A program made the translations under genes and the position numbers. This document shows positions 335-44,185 of a DNA stretch of 49,973 nucleotides, one piece after another (position 1 is the first letter of the stretch; every line of letters starts with the position of its first letter). The notes below the pieces were generated by a model. It saw nothing but the letters and a program-made list of their open reading frames with translations, did not search any database and had not been told where the DNA came from. Origin of the DNA: Thermoleophilia bacterium (GTDB lineage Bacteria > Actinomycetota > Thermoleophilia > Gaiellales > Gaiellaceae); the NCBI GenBank assembly GCA_009694305.1, contig SHVL01000015.1:1-49973 (forward strand). Reading direction: 5' to 3'.

Positions 335-350
335 ACGAACGGGTGTTCGT
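335..350. promoter_or_regulatory. SOS box (LexA operator) of uvrB
   Basis: The sequence ACGAACGGGTGTTCGT is a perfect 6-4-6 palindrome and contains the actinobacterial LexA consensus CGAAC-N4-GTTCG. It lies 22 bases before the proposed uvrB start and just before a TAGGTT -10-like box (359-364). uvrB is a classic SOS gene, so position and target both fit. Confidence 0.8.
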
Positions 351-372: not shown

Positions 373-2373
373 GTGCCCGAGCTTCGTGTCACCGCCGACT
401 ACTCGCCGACCGGCGATCAGCCGCGCGCGATAGCCGAGCTGACGGCCTCGCTCGAGGCGGGCAACCGCTTCCAGACGCTCCTCGGAGCAACGGGCACCGG
501 CAAGACCGCGACGATGGCGTGGCTGATCGAGAAGCTGCAACGGCCCGCCCTCGTGATCGCACACAACAAGACGCTTGCGGCCCAGCTCTGTAACGAGTTC
601 CGCGAGTTCTTCCCCGAGAGCGCCGTCGAGTACTTCGTCTCGTACTACGACTACTACCAGCCCGAGGCCTACGTCCCGCAGGCCGATCTCTACATCGAGA
701 AGGATTCGTCGCGCAACGACGACATCGACCGCCTGCGCCACGCCGCTACGGCATCACTTCTCTCACGCCGTGACACGGTGATCGTCGCGTCCGTCTCGTG
801 TATCTACGGCCTCGGCTCGCCCGAGGAGTACCAGAAGCGCCTGATCCATGTGACGGTCGGCGAGCAGCACGACCGCGACGCACTGCTCCGCAAGCTGATC
901 GACACACAGTACCTCCGCAACGACACCCTGCTCGGCCGGGGCCGTTTCCGCGCCAGGGGTGACGTGATCGAGGTGCAGCCTGCCTCCTCCGAGACCGCCT
1001 ATCGGATCTCGCTCGACGGAGACGAGGTCGAGCAGATAACGCACTTTGACCCTCTGACCGGTGAGGTCTACGCGAAGCTCGACAACCTGACAATCTTCCC
1101 GGCCACCCAGTACGTGACCTCGAAACCCACGATCGAGGCCGCGATGGGGGGGATACGCGCTGAGCTCGAGTCGCAGACCCGCCAGTTCGAGGCCGATGGC
1201 AAGCTGCTCGAGGCACATCGCATCCGCCAGCGCACCGAATACGACATGGAGATGATGAAGGAGCTCGGCTTCTGCAACGGGATCGAGAACTACTCGCGTG
1301 TCCTCGAAGGGCGGCCCGCCGGCTCTCCACCACACACGCTGCTTGACTACTTCCCGTCCGACTTCCTCTGTTTCATCGACGAATCGCACCAGTCGGTGCC
1401 GCAGATCGGCGGAATGTACGAGGGCGACCGCTCGCGGAAGCAGACGCTCGTGGACTTCGGCTTCCGGCTACCGTCGGCGCTCGACAACCGCCCGCTGCGC
1501 TTCGACGAGTTCCTCCAGCGTGTCGGTCAGACGATCTTCGTCTCGGCGACGCCCGGCTCGTACGAGCTGGGCAACTCGACGGTCATCAGCGAACAGTTGA
1601 TCCGGCCGACGGGAATCATCGACCCGGTCGTCGAGCTTCGGGCGACCACGAACCAGATCGACGATCTGCTGGGTGAGATCCGCAGCCGTTCCGACGTGGG
1701 CGAGCGTGTCCTCGTGACGACGCTGACGAAGAAGATGTCCGAGGATCTGACGGACTACCTGCTCGAGGCAGGCGTGAAGGCACGGTACCTCCACTCCGAG
1801 ATCGACACGCTCGAGCGCATCCAGATCATCAGGGAGCTCCGCCTCGGCGAGTACGACGTGCTCGTGGGCGTCAACCTTTTGCGCGAGGGCCTCGACCTTC
1901 CGGAGGTGTCGCTCGTCGCCGTGCTCGACGCCGACAAGGAGGGGTTCCTCCGCGGCAAGACGGCTCTTGTGCAGACGATCGGCCGCGCAGCGCGGAACGT
2001 CAACGGCCGCGTGCTGCTCTACGGCGACAAGGTGACCGAGGCGATCGCCTTCGCGGTGGACGAGACGAACCGCCGTCGGGCCAAGCAGATCGCGTACAAC
2101 GAGGAGCACGGGATCACACCCGAGAACATCGTCAAGGGCGTCTCCGACATCGCCGAGTTCCTCTCGCTCGACTCCCCGACGGTGCCGGGGCGTAGGCGGC
2201 GGGGCAAGGAGAAGATCGAGGGCCTCGACCAGGCCGAGCTGGAGAAGCTCGCGATCACCCTCGAGGAGGAGATGTTCGTTGCCGCCGAGGAGTTGCGGTT
2301 CGAGTACGCGGCAAAACTGCGAGACGAGATCAAGCAGTTGCGGCGCGAATTACAGGCACTCGCAGAGGCCTGA
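373..2373 (+). CDS. uvrB: UvrABC excinuclease subunit B
   Basis: UvrB is the helicase-like damage-verifying subunit of nucleotide excision repair; it receives lesions from UvrA and recruits UvrC. From this GTG start the product is 666 aa, normal for the family. Walker A GATGTGKT is at residues 38-45, followed by the tyrosine-rich beta-hairpin ([14 protein letters not shown]), the DESH helicase box ([11 protein letters not shown]), helicase motifs of the second RecA domain, and a C-terminal UVR coiled coil ([13 protein letters not shown]) that binds UvrC. The frame stays open upstream to an ATG at 253 and another at 319, but those starts would lie before or across the LexA box at 335-350. GTG 373 also gives the family N-terminus. 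SOS induction is expected. Confidence 0.95.
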
Positions 2374-39781: not shown

Positions 39782-40840
39782 GTGACAATCCGCGTCCGCT
39801 TCGCACCGAGCCCCACCGGCTCCCTCCATCTGGGCAACGCGCTCAGCGCAGTCGTCAACCGCACGTACGCCGACGAGCACGGTGGCGTGCTCGTGCTGCG
39901 GATCGACGACACCGACCCGACCCGCTCGCTCGCCGGGGGAGAGGAGGCGATCCTGGCCGATCTCGCCTGGCTCGGGATCGGCTGGGACGAAGGGCCGCTG
40001 CGGCAGAGCCGGCGCGGTGCCGTCTACGCGGCCGCGCTCGAACGGGCGCTCGGCAACGGCGCCGTCCACGACGACGACGGCTCGATCCGGCTTGCCGGCA
40101 CGACCCTGGCTCGAGCCGACGGGACCGCCACCTACCAGCTCGCCACGGTCGCAGACGACCTCGACCTCGGGATCACCCACATCATCCGCGGTTCGGACCA
40201 CCGGCCCAACGAGGACGTGCAGCAGTGGATCGCCCGGGCGCTCGGAGGCGAGCTGCCGGAAGTGATCCACCATGGGCTGCTCCTCGGCGAGGACGGCAAG
40301 AAGCTTTCCAAGCGCGCTGCACACGCCTCGGTCGCCGACCTCCGCGAAGAGGGCATTCCAGGAGCGGCGGCGCGCGCCTACCTCGACGAGCTCGGGCTGC
40401 CGCGCCACGACGTCCAGCTCGATCCCGCGCGAATCCAGCGGCTCGCAATCGATTCGATCGCAGCAATGTCCGACGCCGACCTCGTCGCAGCGGCGGGTGC
40501 TCCGATCGAGCTCGCGCGGGCCCTGCGCGGGGCACGCACGCTGGTCGAGGCAGGCGAGATCGCGCAGCAGATCACCGCGCCGGTAGCCGTGGTTCTCACC
40601 GAGGAGGCGCGGCCCACGATGGAGCGGTTCGTCGAGTTGCGTGAGGGAGCGCCCGAATCGCTCGACGAGGCCGGTGCCCGCGCGATCGTCCGCGAGCTGA
40701 AGGCCGTGGGCGGGAGCCTGAAGCAGCTGCGCCTCGCCCTGACGGGAGCCGAGCGTGGCCCGGAGCTCTGGACGGTCGTTGCCGCTCTGCCCCGTGACGA
40801 GGCGCTCCGTCGAGCGGCCGCCGCTATAACACCGCGATGA
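39782..40840 (+). CDS. gltX: Glutamyl-tRNA synthetase, compact form
   Basis: The enzyme charges tRNA-Glu. The 352-aa product has the class I core: FAPSPTGSLHLGNAL with HLGN, RIDDTDPTRS, GIGWDEGP, THIIRGSDH and the KMSKS variant KKLSKRA at residues 173-179. In ordinary GluRS the KMSKS motif is near residue 245 and the length is about 470-490. About 60-70 residues of the connective insertion and part of the anticodon-binding region are missing. It is longer than GluQ-RS, keeps a C-terminal helical domain, and sits where gltX lies in Bacillus (before cysS), so I call it GltX, with GluQ-RS-like or another specificity possible. GTG 39782 is six bases after TACGGT (leaderless). Confidence 0.8.
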   Translation: MTIRVRFAPSPTGSLHLGNALSAVVNRTYADEHGGVLVLRIDDTDPTRSLAGGEEAILADLAWLGIGWDEGPLRQSRRGAVYAAALERALGNGAVHDDDGSIRLAGTTLARADGTATYQLATVADDLDLGITHIIRGSDHRPNEDVQQWIARALGGELPEVIHHGLLLGEDGKKLSKRAAHASVADLREEGIPGAAARAYLDELGLPRHDVQLDPARIQRLAIDSIAAMSDADLVAAAGAPIELARALRGARTLVEAGEIAQQITAPVAVVLTEEARPTMERFVELREGAPESLDEAGARAIVRELKAVGGSLKQLRLALTGAERGPELWTVVAALPRDEALRRAAAAITPR

Positions 40841-42117
40841 CGGTACGCCTCTACGACACCCAGACGAAGTCGCTCGTCGAGCTTCCACCCGCTCCGGCGC
40901 AGGTCGGGATGTACGTCTGCGGCCCGACCGTCTACCAGCGGGCCCACATCGGCAACGCCGTCCCGTTCGTCATCTTCGCCTGGCTCCGCAACTGGCTGCG
41001 CGAGCGTGGCTACGACGTCACCTACGTCCACAACATCACGGACGTCAACGACAAGATCTACGAGGCTGCACCGGGCGCGAGCGCGGAGCGGGCGCGCGAG
41101 GCGACCGCCTGGTACATCGAGGACACCGCTTCCTTCGGGCTCGAGATGCCGGACGCCCAGCCGCTCGCGACCGAGACGATCCCCGAGATCGTGGAGCTGA
41201 TCGAGGAGCTCGTCTCTGCCGGCCATGCCTACGAGTCCGGCGGGGACGTGTACTTCCGGGTCGCGAGCTTCGAGAGCTACGGCGCGCTCTCGGGCCAGCG
41301 GCCGGATCAGGTCGAGGAGCAGGAGCCGAGTGCGCTGAAGGAGGACCCAAGGGACTTCGCGCTCTGGAAGGCGACGAAGGAGGGAGAGGACACATCGTGG
41401 GCCTCACCCTGGGGGCAGGGCCGGCCCGGCTGGCACATCGAGTGCTCGGCGATGGCCGAGAAGACGCTCGGGCCGGAGTTTCTCATCCACGGTGGTGGGC
41501 TCGACCTCGTCTTCCCGCATCACGAGAACGAGCGGGCGCAGTCGCAGGCCGTCGGGCGGCCGTTCGCGAAGATCTGGATGCACAACGGGCTGCTCCGCTT
41601 CGTCGGCGAGAAGATGTCGAAGTCCGTCGGCAACATCGCCACGATCCAGGAGGTGATTGCCGAGTGGGGGGCCGAGACGGCGCTGCTGTTCCTGATGACG
41701 GGGCACTGGCGCAAGCCGCTCGAGTTCTCGCAGGAGGCGATGACGGCTGCGAGCGTGCAGGTCGAGAGTCTGCGTAACGCGCTTCGGGGTGAGACGAGGG
41801 CTGTCGGGGACTGGGACGCTCTCGCCTCCGCACTCGACGAGGACTTCAACACGCCTGCCGCTCTTGCGCTCCTCCACCGCTGGGCCCGCGAGGGCGCTCT
41901 CGACGAGCTGCGGCGAGGCCTCGCGATCTTCGGGCTCGGTGAGCTCGGCGACACCGTGGAGGCGCCGGCGGAGGTGATCGCACTGGCGCAGGCACGCGTC
42001 GAGGCACGCCTGGCCCGCGACTTTGCCGCGTCGGACAGCCTGCGTGACGAGATCGTGCGGGCGGGGTGGGAGGTGCGGGACATCCCGGCCGGCTTCGAGC
42101 TCGTGCCGCTGTCGTGA
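40837..42117 (+). CDS. cysS: Cysteinyl-tRNA synthetase
   Basis: CysS charges tRNA-Cys. The 426-aa product has zinc ligand C28 in MYVCGPTVY, HIGN at residues 37-40, the WHIECSAMAEKTLG and GGLDLVFPHHENE zinc segments, and EKMSKSVGN. The C-terminal DALR-type helical domain is short but present. ATG overlaps the gltX stop (ATGA) and its own stop overlaps rlmB. cysE and mrnC, which flank cysS in Bacillus, are absent. Confidence 0.94.
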   Translation: MTVRLYDTQTKSLVELPPAPAQVGMYVCGPTVYQRAHIGNAVPFVIFAWLRNWLRERGYDVTYVHNITDVNDKIYEAAPGASAERAREATAWYIEDTASFGLEMPDAQPLATETIPEIVELIEELVSAGHAYESGGDVYFRVASFESYGALSGQRPDQVEEQEPSALKEDPRDFALWKATKEGEDTSWASPWGQGRPGWHIECSAMAEKTLGPEFLIHGGGLDLVFPHHENERAQSQAVGRPFAKIWMHNGLLRFVGEKMSKSVGNIATIQEVIAEWGAETALLFLMTGHWRKPLEFSQEAMTAASVQVESLRNALRGETRAVGDWDALASALDEDFNTPAALALLHRWAREGALDELRRGLAIFGLGELGDTVEAPAEVIALAQARVEARLARDFAASDSLRDEIVRAGWEVRDIPAGFELVPLS

Positions 42118-42818
42118 CCCGGGAAATCGTCTTCGGACGGAACGCTGTCCGTGAGGCTCTGCGCGGCCGACGCGAGGTGCTCGAGCTGTGGGTGTCCGAA
42201 CGGGCGGCCGCAGCGCTCGACTGGCTCGGAGAGGGTCCTCGACCGCGGGTCGCCAGGGAGGAGGAGCTGACGGAGGCGGCGGAGAGCCCCGATCATCAGG
42301 GTGTCGTCGCCTGGGCTGAACCGTACCCGTACGCCGACCCGTGGGCGCTCGCCTCGCTCGAGAAGCCATTGCTCGCCTGTCTCGATCAGGTCACCGACCC
42401 GCGGAATCTCGGAGCGGTGATCCGATCGGCCGCAGGGGCAGGTGCCACGGGCGTGATCGTGCCCGCCCACGGTGCGGCCCGGGTGACGCCGGCCGTGTGC
42501 CGATCTTCGGCAGGAGCTGTCGAGCATCTGCCGGTCGCCGTCGTACCGAACCTCGCGCGCTACCTGGCCGAGATCAAACGGGGCGACCTCTGGTCGTACG
42601 CGGCCGCGGCAGACGCGACGCAGACGATGTGGCAGACAGACCTGACGGGAGGCGTTGCGCTCGTCTTCGGGGCCGAGGGCAAGGGTGTGCGGCCGCTCGT
42701 CCGCAAGACCTGCGACGCGACCGTCTCGATCCCACTCGCTGCCGGTGTCGAGTCGCTGAACGTCAGTGTCGCGGCCGCCGTGCTGCTGTACGAGGCCCGT
42801 CGGCAGCGAGCCTCGTAG
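42114..42818 (+). CDS. rlmB: 23S rRNA 2'-O-methyltransferase, SpoU/RlmB family
   Basis: This SPOUT methyltransferase probably methylates G2251 of 23S rRNA, judged by family and neighbours. The 234-aa product has the substrate-binding N-terminal domain (VFGRNAVREALRG and so on) and the knotted catalytic domain: DQVTDPRNLGAVIRSA (motif 1), VFGAEGKGVRPLV (motif 2) and IPLAAGVESLNVSVAAAVLLYE (motif 3). GTG 42114 overlaps the cysS stop by four bases; an ATG at 42066 is an out-of-context extension. cysS-rlmB-NYN-sigH is the Bacillus order. Confidence 0.92.
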   Translation: MTREIVFGRNAVREALRGRREVLELWVSERAAAALDWLGEGPRPRVAREEELTEAAESPDHQGVVAWAEPYPYADPWALASLEKPLLACLDQVTDPRNLGAVIRSAAGAGATGVIVPAHGAARVTPAVCRSSAGAVEHLPVAVVPNLARYLAEIKRGDLWSYAAAADATQTMWQTDLTGGVALVFGAEGKGVRPLVRKTCDATVSIPLAAGVESLNVSVAAAVLLYEARRQRAS

Positions 42819-42826
42819 GTCTCTGC

Positions 42827-42857
42827 GGTGACAGGCTTCGGTCTGTCTCCGGGGTTC
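42827..42857. repeat. REP-like hairpin, copy 2
   Basis: GACAGGC and GTCTGTC form a seven-base stem (one G-T pair) with loop TTCG. The flank TCCGGGGTT is the same as in copy 1, and a stem pair differs by a double change that keeps pairing. It lies between rlmB and the NYN gene. Confidence 0.65.
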
Positions 42858-42884
42858 AGCCGGCTTTCGCCCTACGATGCGTCC

Positions 42885-43316
42885 ATGCCCGAGCCGACCC
42901 TTTACCTCTTCGACGGCCACAATCTCCTGCACGCGGGTGGGTACACGGATGTCTGTGAGCTCACCGACGAGCTTGCAAACTTCGTCGCCGTGAACGGTGC
43001 GCGCGGAGTCGTCGTCTTCGACGGTACCGGCGAGGAGTCCGAGATAGGGCCGCTCTCGGTGCGCTACGCGCCTCACGCCGACACGCTGCTCGAGCGTCTC
43101 GCAGCCGAGCATCGGCAACGGGAGCGCGTCTGCCTGATCTCCTCCGATGCTGCCATCCGCGGCACATCCGGTCAGGAGGTGCGCAACATCTCCTCGGGCG
43201 CGTTCCTGCGCGACCTCGAGAGCCCGACGCATGTCGAGTACGAGGCGTCACGCCTCCGGGATCGGATCGACCCGGAGACACGGGCCCGCCTCGAGCAGCT
43301 CCGCCGCGGTCTCTGA
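42885..43316 (+). CDS. NYN-domain endoribonuclease, YacP/Rae1-like
   Basis: The 143-aa product has the NYN (PIN-like) nuclease start YLFDGHNLLHAGG with the first acidic residue, a GVVVFDG strand, the RYAPHADTLLERLAAE helix with further acidic residues, and LISSDAAIRG with the last conserved aspartate. In Bacillus the protein in this position, Rae1 (YacP), is a ribosome-associated mRNA endonuclease. Location between rlmB and sigH is the same here. ATG 42885 is six bases after TACGAT (42873-42878), so it is probably a leaderless transcript; an ATG at 42828 would extend into the REP-like hairpin. Confidence 0.85.
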   Translation: MPEPTLYLFDGHNLLHAGGYTDVCELTDELANFVAVNGARGVVVFDGTGEESEIGPLSVRYAPHADTLLERLAAEHRQRERVCLISSDAAIRGTSGQEVRNISSGAFLRDLESPTHVEYEASRLRDRIDPETRARLEQLRRGL

Positions 43317-43371
43317 AGCACCGGGGCGCGTTGAGTCAGCCGGCGCGAAGCAGAGAAGCTCTTCGCGCATA

Positions 43372-43385
43372 CGAACGTATGTTCT
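43372..43385. promoter_or_regulatory. LexA-like box upstream of sigH
   Basis: CGAACGTATGTTCT contains CGAAC-N4-GTTC, one base short of the full SOS consensus. It also lies in the palindrome CATACGAACGTATG (43368-43381). It is 134 bases before the sigH start and could regulate sigH, or be coincidental. Confidence 0.4.
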
Positions 43386-43412
43386 TATCACAGTGCAAAA
43401 TCTGCAAGGGGG

Positions 43413-43444
43413 TTGTAACGCGCGCAAGAACGTGCTACGTTCTT
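43413..43444 (+). promoter_or_regulatory. Promoter of sigH overlapped by an 8-3-8 inverted repeat
   Basis: TTGTAA (43413-43418) and TACGTT (43436-43441) are 17 bases apart. AAGAACGT and ACGTTCTT (43426-43433 and 43437-43444) form a perfect inverted repeat around GCT that covers the spacer and -10 box, the usual place for an operator. A GGTGA/TCACC hairpin (43457-43475) lies in the leader. Confidence 0.6.
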
Positions 43445-43519
43445 CCTCAAGTTCAGGGTGAGACTTTGCTTCACCGTGATGCGTAAAACCTCGGAAAACG
43501 CTTAGACAAGGGAGAAACG

Positions 43520-44185
43520 ATGTCCCCCCGTACGGCCTTTGCCCCGAAGACCCCACAGAAGCTTCAACGTGAACTTGAGGATTTGCAGCTCGTCCTCAAG
43601 GCCCGGAACGGCAACCAGGCGGCGCTCGATCAGCTGATGCGGCGCTATCACGGCTTCGTCCGTCTGAAGGCGAGCAGCTACTTCCTCGCAGGCGGTGACG
43701 CGGACGACCTGATCCAGGAGGGCATGATCGGGCTGTACAAGGCGATGCGTGATTTCAGGCACGACAAGGAGACGTCGTTCCGCTCGTTCGCCGAGTTGTG
43801 CGTGACGCGCCAGATCATCACGGCGATCAAGACAGCGACGCGGTTCAAGCACTCGCCTCTGAATCAGTACATCTCGTTCAGCCATACGCCGTCGGGCCAG
43901 GACAACGAAGGAGACTGCACGCTGGGTGACGCTCTCCCCGGCCCCGGCACGGACGATCCTGCTAGTCGCGTGATCTCCACCGAGGAGCTCCAGAGCCTCG
44001 TCGGCTGTCTCGGTACGACGTTGTCGCCACTCGAGTCCGACGCGTTGCGCCTCTACCTCGACGGCAAGTCGTACGACATGATGGCGGTCGAGCTCGAGTG
44101 CGATACGAAGACGATCGATAATGCGCTGCAGCGGGTGAAGCGCAAGATCGTGCAGCATCAGGCAACGCGCGCGGTGCCTGCCTAG
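43520..44185 (+). CDS. sigH: RNA polymerase sigma factor of the SigH (Spo0H) type
   Basis: The 221-aa sigma-70 family protein closely resembles Bacillus SigH: region 2 has MRRYHGFVRLKASSYFLAGG, DDLIQEGMIGLYKAMRDF and FAELCVTRQIITAIKTATR, and region 4 has DGKSYDMMAVELECD and TIDNALQRVKRKI. In Bacillus SigH governs the transition to stationary phase, sporulation and competence; no sporulation gene is present here, so the regulon is unknown. AAGGGAG lies before the ATG. The leader and promoter carry two inverted repeats, one LexA-like. sigH closes the conserved block. Confidence 0.9.
   Translation: MSPRTAFAPKTPQKLQRELEDLQLVLKARNGNQAALDQLMRRYHGFVRLKASSYFLAGGDADDLIQEGMIGLYKAMRDFRHDKETSFRSFAELCVTRQIITAIKTATRFKHSPLNQYISFSHTPSGQDNEGDCTLGDALPGPGTDDPASRVISTEELQSLVGCLGTTLSPLESDALRLYLDGKSYDMMAVELECDTKTIDNALQRVKRKIVQHQATRAVPA

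Follow-up and report, generated by a model that had tools for sequence, protein, structure and literature searches.

In the Gaiellaceae lineage, the gene for the Spo0H-type sigma factor SigH is most likely under LexA (SOS) control, as comparison of its upstream regions across the family suggests. What is new is a predicted LexA box that is conserved family-wide and keeps a fixed position on a chromosomal Spo0H orthologue. The window, by which we mean the whole stretch of 49,973 nt that was analyzed, is contig 44 of a draft genome of 2.47 Mb.

A Spo0H-type sigma factor in a lineage without Spo0A

In Firmicutes, Spo0H is a master switch of sporulation and competence. A gene of this family, with its ATG start codon at 43520, lies in the window next to a yacP-like gene:

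42891..43316, + strand: yacP-like NYN-domain gene, the 5′ neighbour of sigH (Pfam NYN_YacP)
43520..44185, + strand: sigH, Spo0H-family sigma factor of 221 aa (NCBIfam NF006148; Pfam Sigma70_r2 and r4_2)

The earlier note on this DNA had named the product a Spo0H-type sigma factor, and the protein indeed scores above the cut-offs of two SigH equivalog models, NF006148 (240.7 bits; cut-off 208) and NF006145 (232; cut-off 212); against the stricter TIGR02859 it scores 234.7, under the cut-off of 294.8. In regions 2.4 and 4.2, which contact DNA, its sequence is very close to that of Firmicute SigH. The gene order cysS-rlmB-yacP-like-sigH spans 40837-44185, and a tRNA-Thr gene follows sigH on the opposite strand. 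The Bacillus sigH region also has the order cysS-rlmB-yacP-sigH, and we take this order to be ancestral. Spo0A was found in none of 41 Gaiellaceae-family genomes, and the B. subtilis control was positive, which bears out the earlier suggestion of a likely non-sporulating host insofar as the lineage is without the sporulation initiator. We know of no study on the role of Spo0H in actinobacteria that lack Spo0A.

SOS boxes of the order and of the genome

A CGAAC-N4-GTTC core was present 5′ of lexA in all 39 lexA loci, which come from four families of the order and hold 41 boxes in total, and this lineage motif agrees with the LexA motif of Streptomyces, tCGAAC-N4-GNNCGa (PMC9380542). In the genome to which the window belongs, CGAACATATGTTCG lies directly upstream of lexA (G000:C66 20745-21377), the product of which carries the Pfam domains LexA_DNA_bind and Peptidase_S24. 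A scoring matrix was built from the lexA-gene boxes alone, with the sigH sequences kept out, and these boxes score 19.7-26.5 bits against it. Sites were then listed in the same genome by an exact-pattern search together with targeted loci (recA), a procedure that may miss degenerate LexA sites; those of at least 17 bits precede lexA, recA, uvrA, uvrB, the gene for an ImuB-like (IMS-family) polymerase, the gene for a DnaQ/UvrC-like (GIY-YIG) nuclease, a LysM protein gene (two sites) and sigH. The sole other site at this threshold, of 17.1 bits, is inside the citrate synthase gene. The ImuB-like gene has its box in a TTGACA-box-TATAGA arrangement. The uvrB gene is itself in the window, where it serves as an internal SOS control:

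336..349, + strand: second LexA box of the window, CGAACGGGTGTTCG, before uvrB (20.2 bits)
385..2373, + strand: uvrB, start approximate (Pfam UvrB, UvrB_inter and UVR)

The LysM protein is small (83 aa; L042:2093-2363, G000:C55) and its gene is preceded by two tandem perfect LexA boxes; the protein is reminiscent of YneA-like inhibitors of cell division in the SOS response.

A LexA box is conserved upstream of sigH

The region between yacP and sigH contains the following elements:

43372..43385, + strand: LexA (SOS) box CGAACGTATGTTCT, 5′ of sigH (17.8 bits; family conservation)
43386..43412, + strand: conserved 27-nt block from the box to the −35 (TATCA...GCAA here, TGGGTCCANNGCAA in many other genera), seen in the alignment on the box
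43413..43418, + strand: −35 element TTGTAA (family-wide conservation)
43426..43444, no strand: perfect 8-3-8 inverted repeat AAGAACGTGCTACGTTCTT, judged incidental
43433..43441, + strand: extended −10 element TGC-TACGTT (TGC-TANNNT in relatives), in 36/36 box-bearing sequences and 30/31 others
43446..43462, no strand: conserved CTCAAGTTCAGGGTGAG palindrome on the predicted start of transcription (conservation and spacing)

The box reads CGAAC-GTAT-GTTC(T) over 43372-43385, with CGAACGTATGTTC at 43372-43384, and its score with the lexA-box matrix equals that of the box before recA in this genome. Its conservation was counted over the 200-bp regions upstream of sigH, of which 67 distinct ones were left after identical sequences had been removed, family membership being set at a SigH identity of at least 72%; the relatives include many metagenome-assembled genomes, and some named loci duplicate other genomes in the set. 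A box of at least 10 bits is present in 36 of the 67, and the distribution is bimodal, the other 31 all scoring below 0. As background, the DNA around sigH at these loci, 316 kb in all, held 8 sites of at least 10 bits, or 0.005 per 200 bp. The box-bearing sequences represent nine genera (g1, g2, g8, g9, g11, g18, g19, g24 and g29). On the SigH tree, presence of the box changes 7 times, versus about 25 times for shuffled labels, which is compatible with a single early gain and several losses, the order of gain and loss not being fixed by the tree.

At the same threshold of 10 bits, a box was lacking in 27 of 28 sequences from other families and in all 36 of the distant sigH upstream regions scored. 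The sole site outside the family, in L201 from another family of the same order, is weaker (15.8 bits). Since the box is missing from 31 of the 67 family sequences and from nearly all of those from other families, SigH function does not depend on LexA control.

The earlier note had described the upstream CGAAC-N4-GTTC as LexA-like and had proposed looking in relatives for the two palindromes that it saw before sigH. This one matches the lexA-gene motif and recurs in 36/67 family sequences, versus 0.005 expected per 200 bp, and is upheld on both counts as a LexA box. From these comparisons, the element at 43372-43385 is very probably functional as a LexA site.

The box follows sigH rather than the upstream gene

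In many box-bearing relatives other genes lie between yacP and sigH; they are mostly co-directional and end before the box, and the box stays beside sigH while the upstream gene changes. We therefore rejected the possibility that the box belongs to the upstream gene, the more so as that neighbour is usually co-directional.

Two clades have further genes around this arrangement. In one (e.g. L060 and L067), the far side of the box is occupied by a divergent response-regulator gene, which could share the box with sigH. In the g11 clade (L103:4107-5156; L080, L111, L116 and L105), a second RpoD-like sigma gene, the product of which is 57-67% identical to the own RpoD, is found just 3′ of sigH; the LexA box may there precede two sigma genes.

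Architecture of the sigH control region

The promoter proposed earlier, TTGTAA (43413-43418) and TACGTT (43436-43441) with a 17-nt spacer, is correct in its letters, and the pattern TTGNN-(14-17)-TGYTANNNT is kept, as an extended −10 promoter, in 66 of the 67 distinct family sequences. In relatives the −35 is TTGTAA or TTGTAT, and the 17-nt spacer ends in TGC. The distance from the end of the box to the −35 is 27 nt in the window and 26-28 nt in 31 of the 36 box-bearing sequences (55 nt in one clade); against this fixed spacing, the distance from the −10 to the start codon varies between 39 and 111 nt.

The block that separates the box from the −35 contains GCAA in 36/36 box-bearing sequences, and directly behind the box it has a T in 30/36 and an A in 31/36. 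Its GGTCC part has been lost in the genus of the window. To the left of the box there is hardly any conservation. The block at 43386-43412 is a possible activator site. In relatives (e.g. L075, L090 and L172) a GGTCCA-N2-GCAA element, sometimes repeated, is found between the box and the −35, and it looks like the site of a separate regulator; GGACC occurs again within the −35/−10 spacer in many genera.

The palindrome behind the −10, present in most sequences as CTCAANYTNAGGGTGAG, starts 4 nt after the −10 (3 nt in two sequences) wherever it was matched among the box-bearing sequences, a spacing at which it coincides with the predicted start. The same position is palindrome-like in 29 of the 36 sequences with a box and in 20 of the 31 without one. 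The only perfect match to CTCAAGTTCAGGGTGAG in the genome is the one at sigH, and near matches elsewhere are outnumbered by those of the reversed control. Related CCTCAA...TGAGG elements are seen near the sigH promoters of other families of the order. This palindrome, the conserved block before the −35 and the uvrB box are additions to what the earlier note had described.

Relative to the start predicted by the conserved promoter, the centre of the LexA box is at about −69. A LexA operator is usually placed over the promoter or no more than about 50 bp from the start, whereas activators typically bind near −69.

A model for LexA control of sigH

DNA-damage control of sigH, which the earlier note had raised as possible, is likely on comparative grounds, given that a LexA box lies upstream. 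Almost all of the bacteria in which LexA has been studied use it as a repressor, and from its action elsewhere we infer that it represses rather than activates sigH, although we are less sure of this than of LexA control itself. We propose that LexA dimers on 43372-43385, centred some 69 bp before the predicted start, would hold down a conserved promoter of the housekeeping type (TTGTAA-17-extended −10). Upon DNA damage, RecA would become active and LexA would cleave itself, vacating the site and allowing sigH to be transcribed, and SigH would then steer RNA polymerase to a regulon of its own. Because the centre of the box, near −69, is upstream of the usual place of a LexA operator, simple occlusion of the promoter does not explain repression. 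The route that we prefer is that LexA would keep an activator, or contacts of RNA polymerase, off the block between the box and the −35.

A less probable, though by no means negligible, alternative is that LexA represses a second promoter further upstream, with TANCAT (in relatives) or TATCAC (here) behind the box as its −10 and an SOS start near 43398, the conserved promoter then being the basal one. TANNNT directly follows the box in 16 of the 36 box-bearing sequences and TANCA in 12 more, the arrangement at the ImuB-like gene of the same genome is in the same register, and pBS32 sigN is known to have a LexA-repressed upstream promoter together with a constitutive downstream one (PMC6751061). 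However, none of the 36 sequences has a TTG at the right place for the −35 of such a promoter, in a left flank that is almost unconserved, and a T stands at position six of this presumed −10 in only 17/36.

It is more doubtful still that LexA binds but activates sigH or has little effect on it, and that the start-site palindrome, together with the GGTCCA-GCAA block, mainly sets expression. Both of these elements are also found in sequences without a LexA box, and the site near −69 is where an activator would typically be expected; but such a role would run counter to the general behaviour of LexA as a repressor, and the companion sites in the genome of the window are nearly all at damage-repair genes.

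The 8-3-8 inverted repeat over the promoter had also been put forward as an operator. Its perfect arms, AAGAACGT-GCT-ACGTTCTT, are present as letters, and the 40 nt measured between the end of the LexA box and this repeat agrees with the roughly 40 bases given before. As a regulatory element we rejected it: perfect 8-3-8 repeats occur in the window at chance level (2, versus 1.8 expected from Markov shuffles), the genome has no second copy with fewer than 3 mismatches, GAAC-N7-GTTC is absent from the equivalent place in every relative examined, and the LexA matrix scores about −40 bits at the arms, where the half-sites are 7 bases apart and not 4. For the same reasons, the idea that one regulator binds both palindromes, which had been suggested by the GAACGT/GTTCTT common to the two in the window, is so improbable that it can be set aside.

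Candidate targets of SigH

A search of 41 genomes with the Bacillus SigH consensus, AGGAWWW-N11/12-RNNGAAT, returned 17 matches versus 5 for the reversed control, and no target gene recurred among them. At 30 comEC loci, a pattern related to this consensus had no match. In the genome of the window, AGGAAAATTCCTGCGACTAGGGAAT matches the consensus 158 nt before rpoD (L243:1501-1525, G000:C23:57202), and no relative has a match before rpoD. That the SigH programme is DNA uptake is only a guess, made by analogy with relatives of SigH in other bacteria.

Relation to known systems and implications

Bacillus Spo0H/SigH is an orthologous protein with the same locus order and with conserved regions 2.4 and 4.2, and we know of no LexA control of Spo0H/SigH in Bacillus and its relatives. 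A search of open-licence papers found none that deals with LexA in Thermoleophilia or with control of a Spo0H by LexA. The novelty claimed earlier for a damage-controlled Spo0H-type sigma factor stands in part: no LexA-controlled Spo0H orthologue was found, but LexA-controlled sigma factors as such are known (SigN and, putatively, C. glutamicum SigH).

The gene for SigN (ZpdN) of Bacillus subtilis pBS32 has a LexA inverted-repeat box, is bound and repressed by LexA and is induced by mitomycin C (PMC6751061). Gaiellaceae sigH resembles it as an alternative sigma gene with a predicted LexA box. In contrast to pBS32 SigN, which is plasmid-borne, lethal to the cell and autoactivated and whose box overlaps the −35 (PMC6751061), Gaiellaceae sigH is chromosomal, lies at an ancestral locus, belongs to the Spo0H family and has its box 27 nt upstream of the −35. 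In Corynebacterium glutamicum, also an actinobacterium, a putative SOS box overlaps one of the promoters of the gene for the alternative sigma factor SigH (PMC3489674). This SigH is, however, of the unrelated ECF type and has an anti-sigma factor, RshA, so that the name alone is common to both; moreover, its LexA control was proposed from one site, whereas that of Gaiellaceae sigH is proposed from family-wide conservation. Another actinobacterial sigma factor with a link to damage, SigG of Mycobacterium tuberculosis, is DNA-damage-inducible mainly via the RecA_NDp promoter, not one of the LexA-box type (PMC3776920), and differs in both sigma family and promoter type.

If sigH is repressed by LexA as we propose, the Spo0H orthologue of the Gaiellaceae may have been rewired from a starvation or sporulation input to DNA damage, with SOS leading on to a second-wave sigma regulon in a two-tier response; we put this forward tentatively, as a possibility that we rate somewhat short of even. 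LexA usually controls repair genes directly, and with a sigma factor under LexA the alarm would spread to an entire additional gene set. DNA damage would probably switch on an extra SigH gene programme, and this second-wave regulon may serve DNA uptake or recombination, or set up a survival state. SOS control would give a concrete lead to what triggers SigH in actinobacteria that lack Spo0A.
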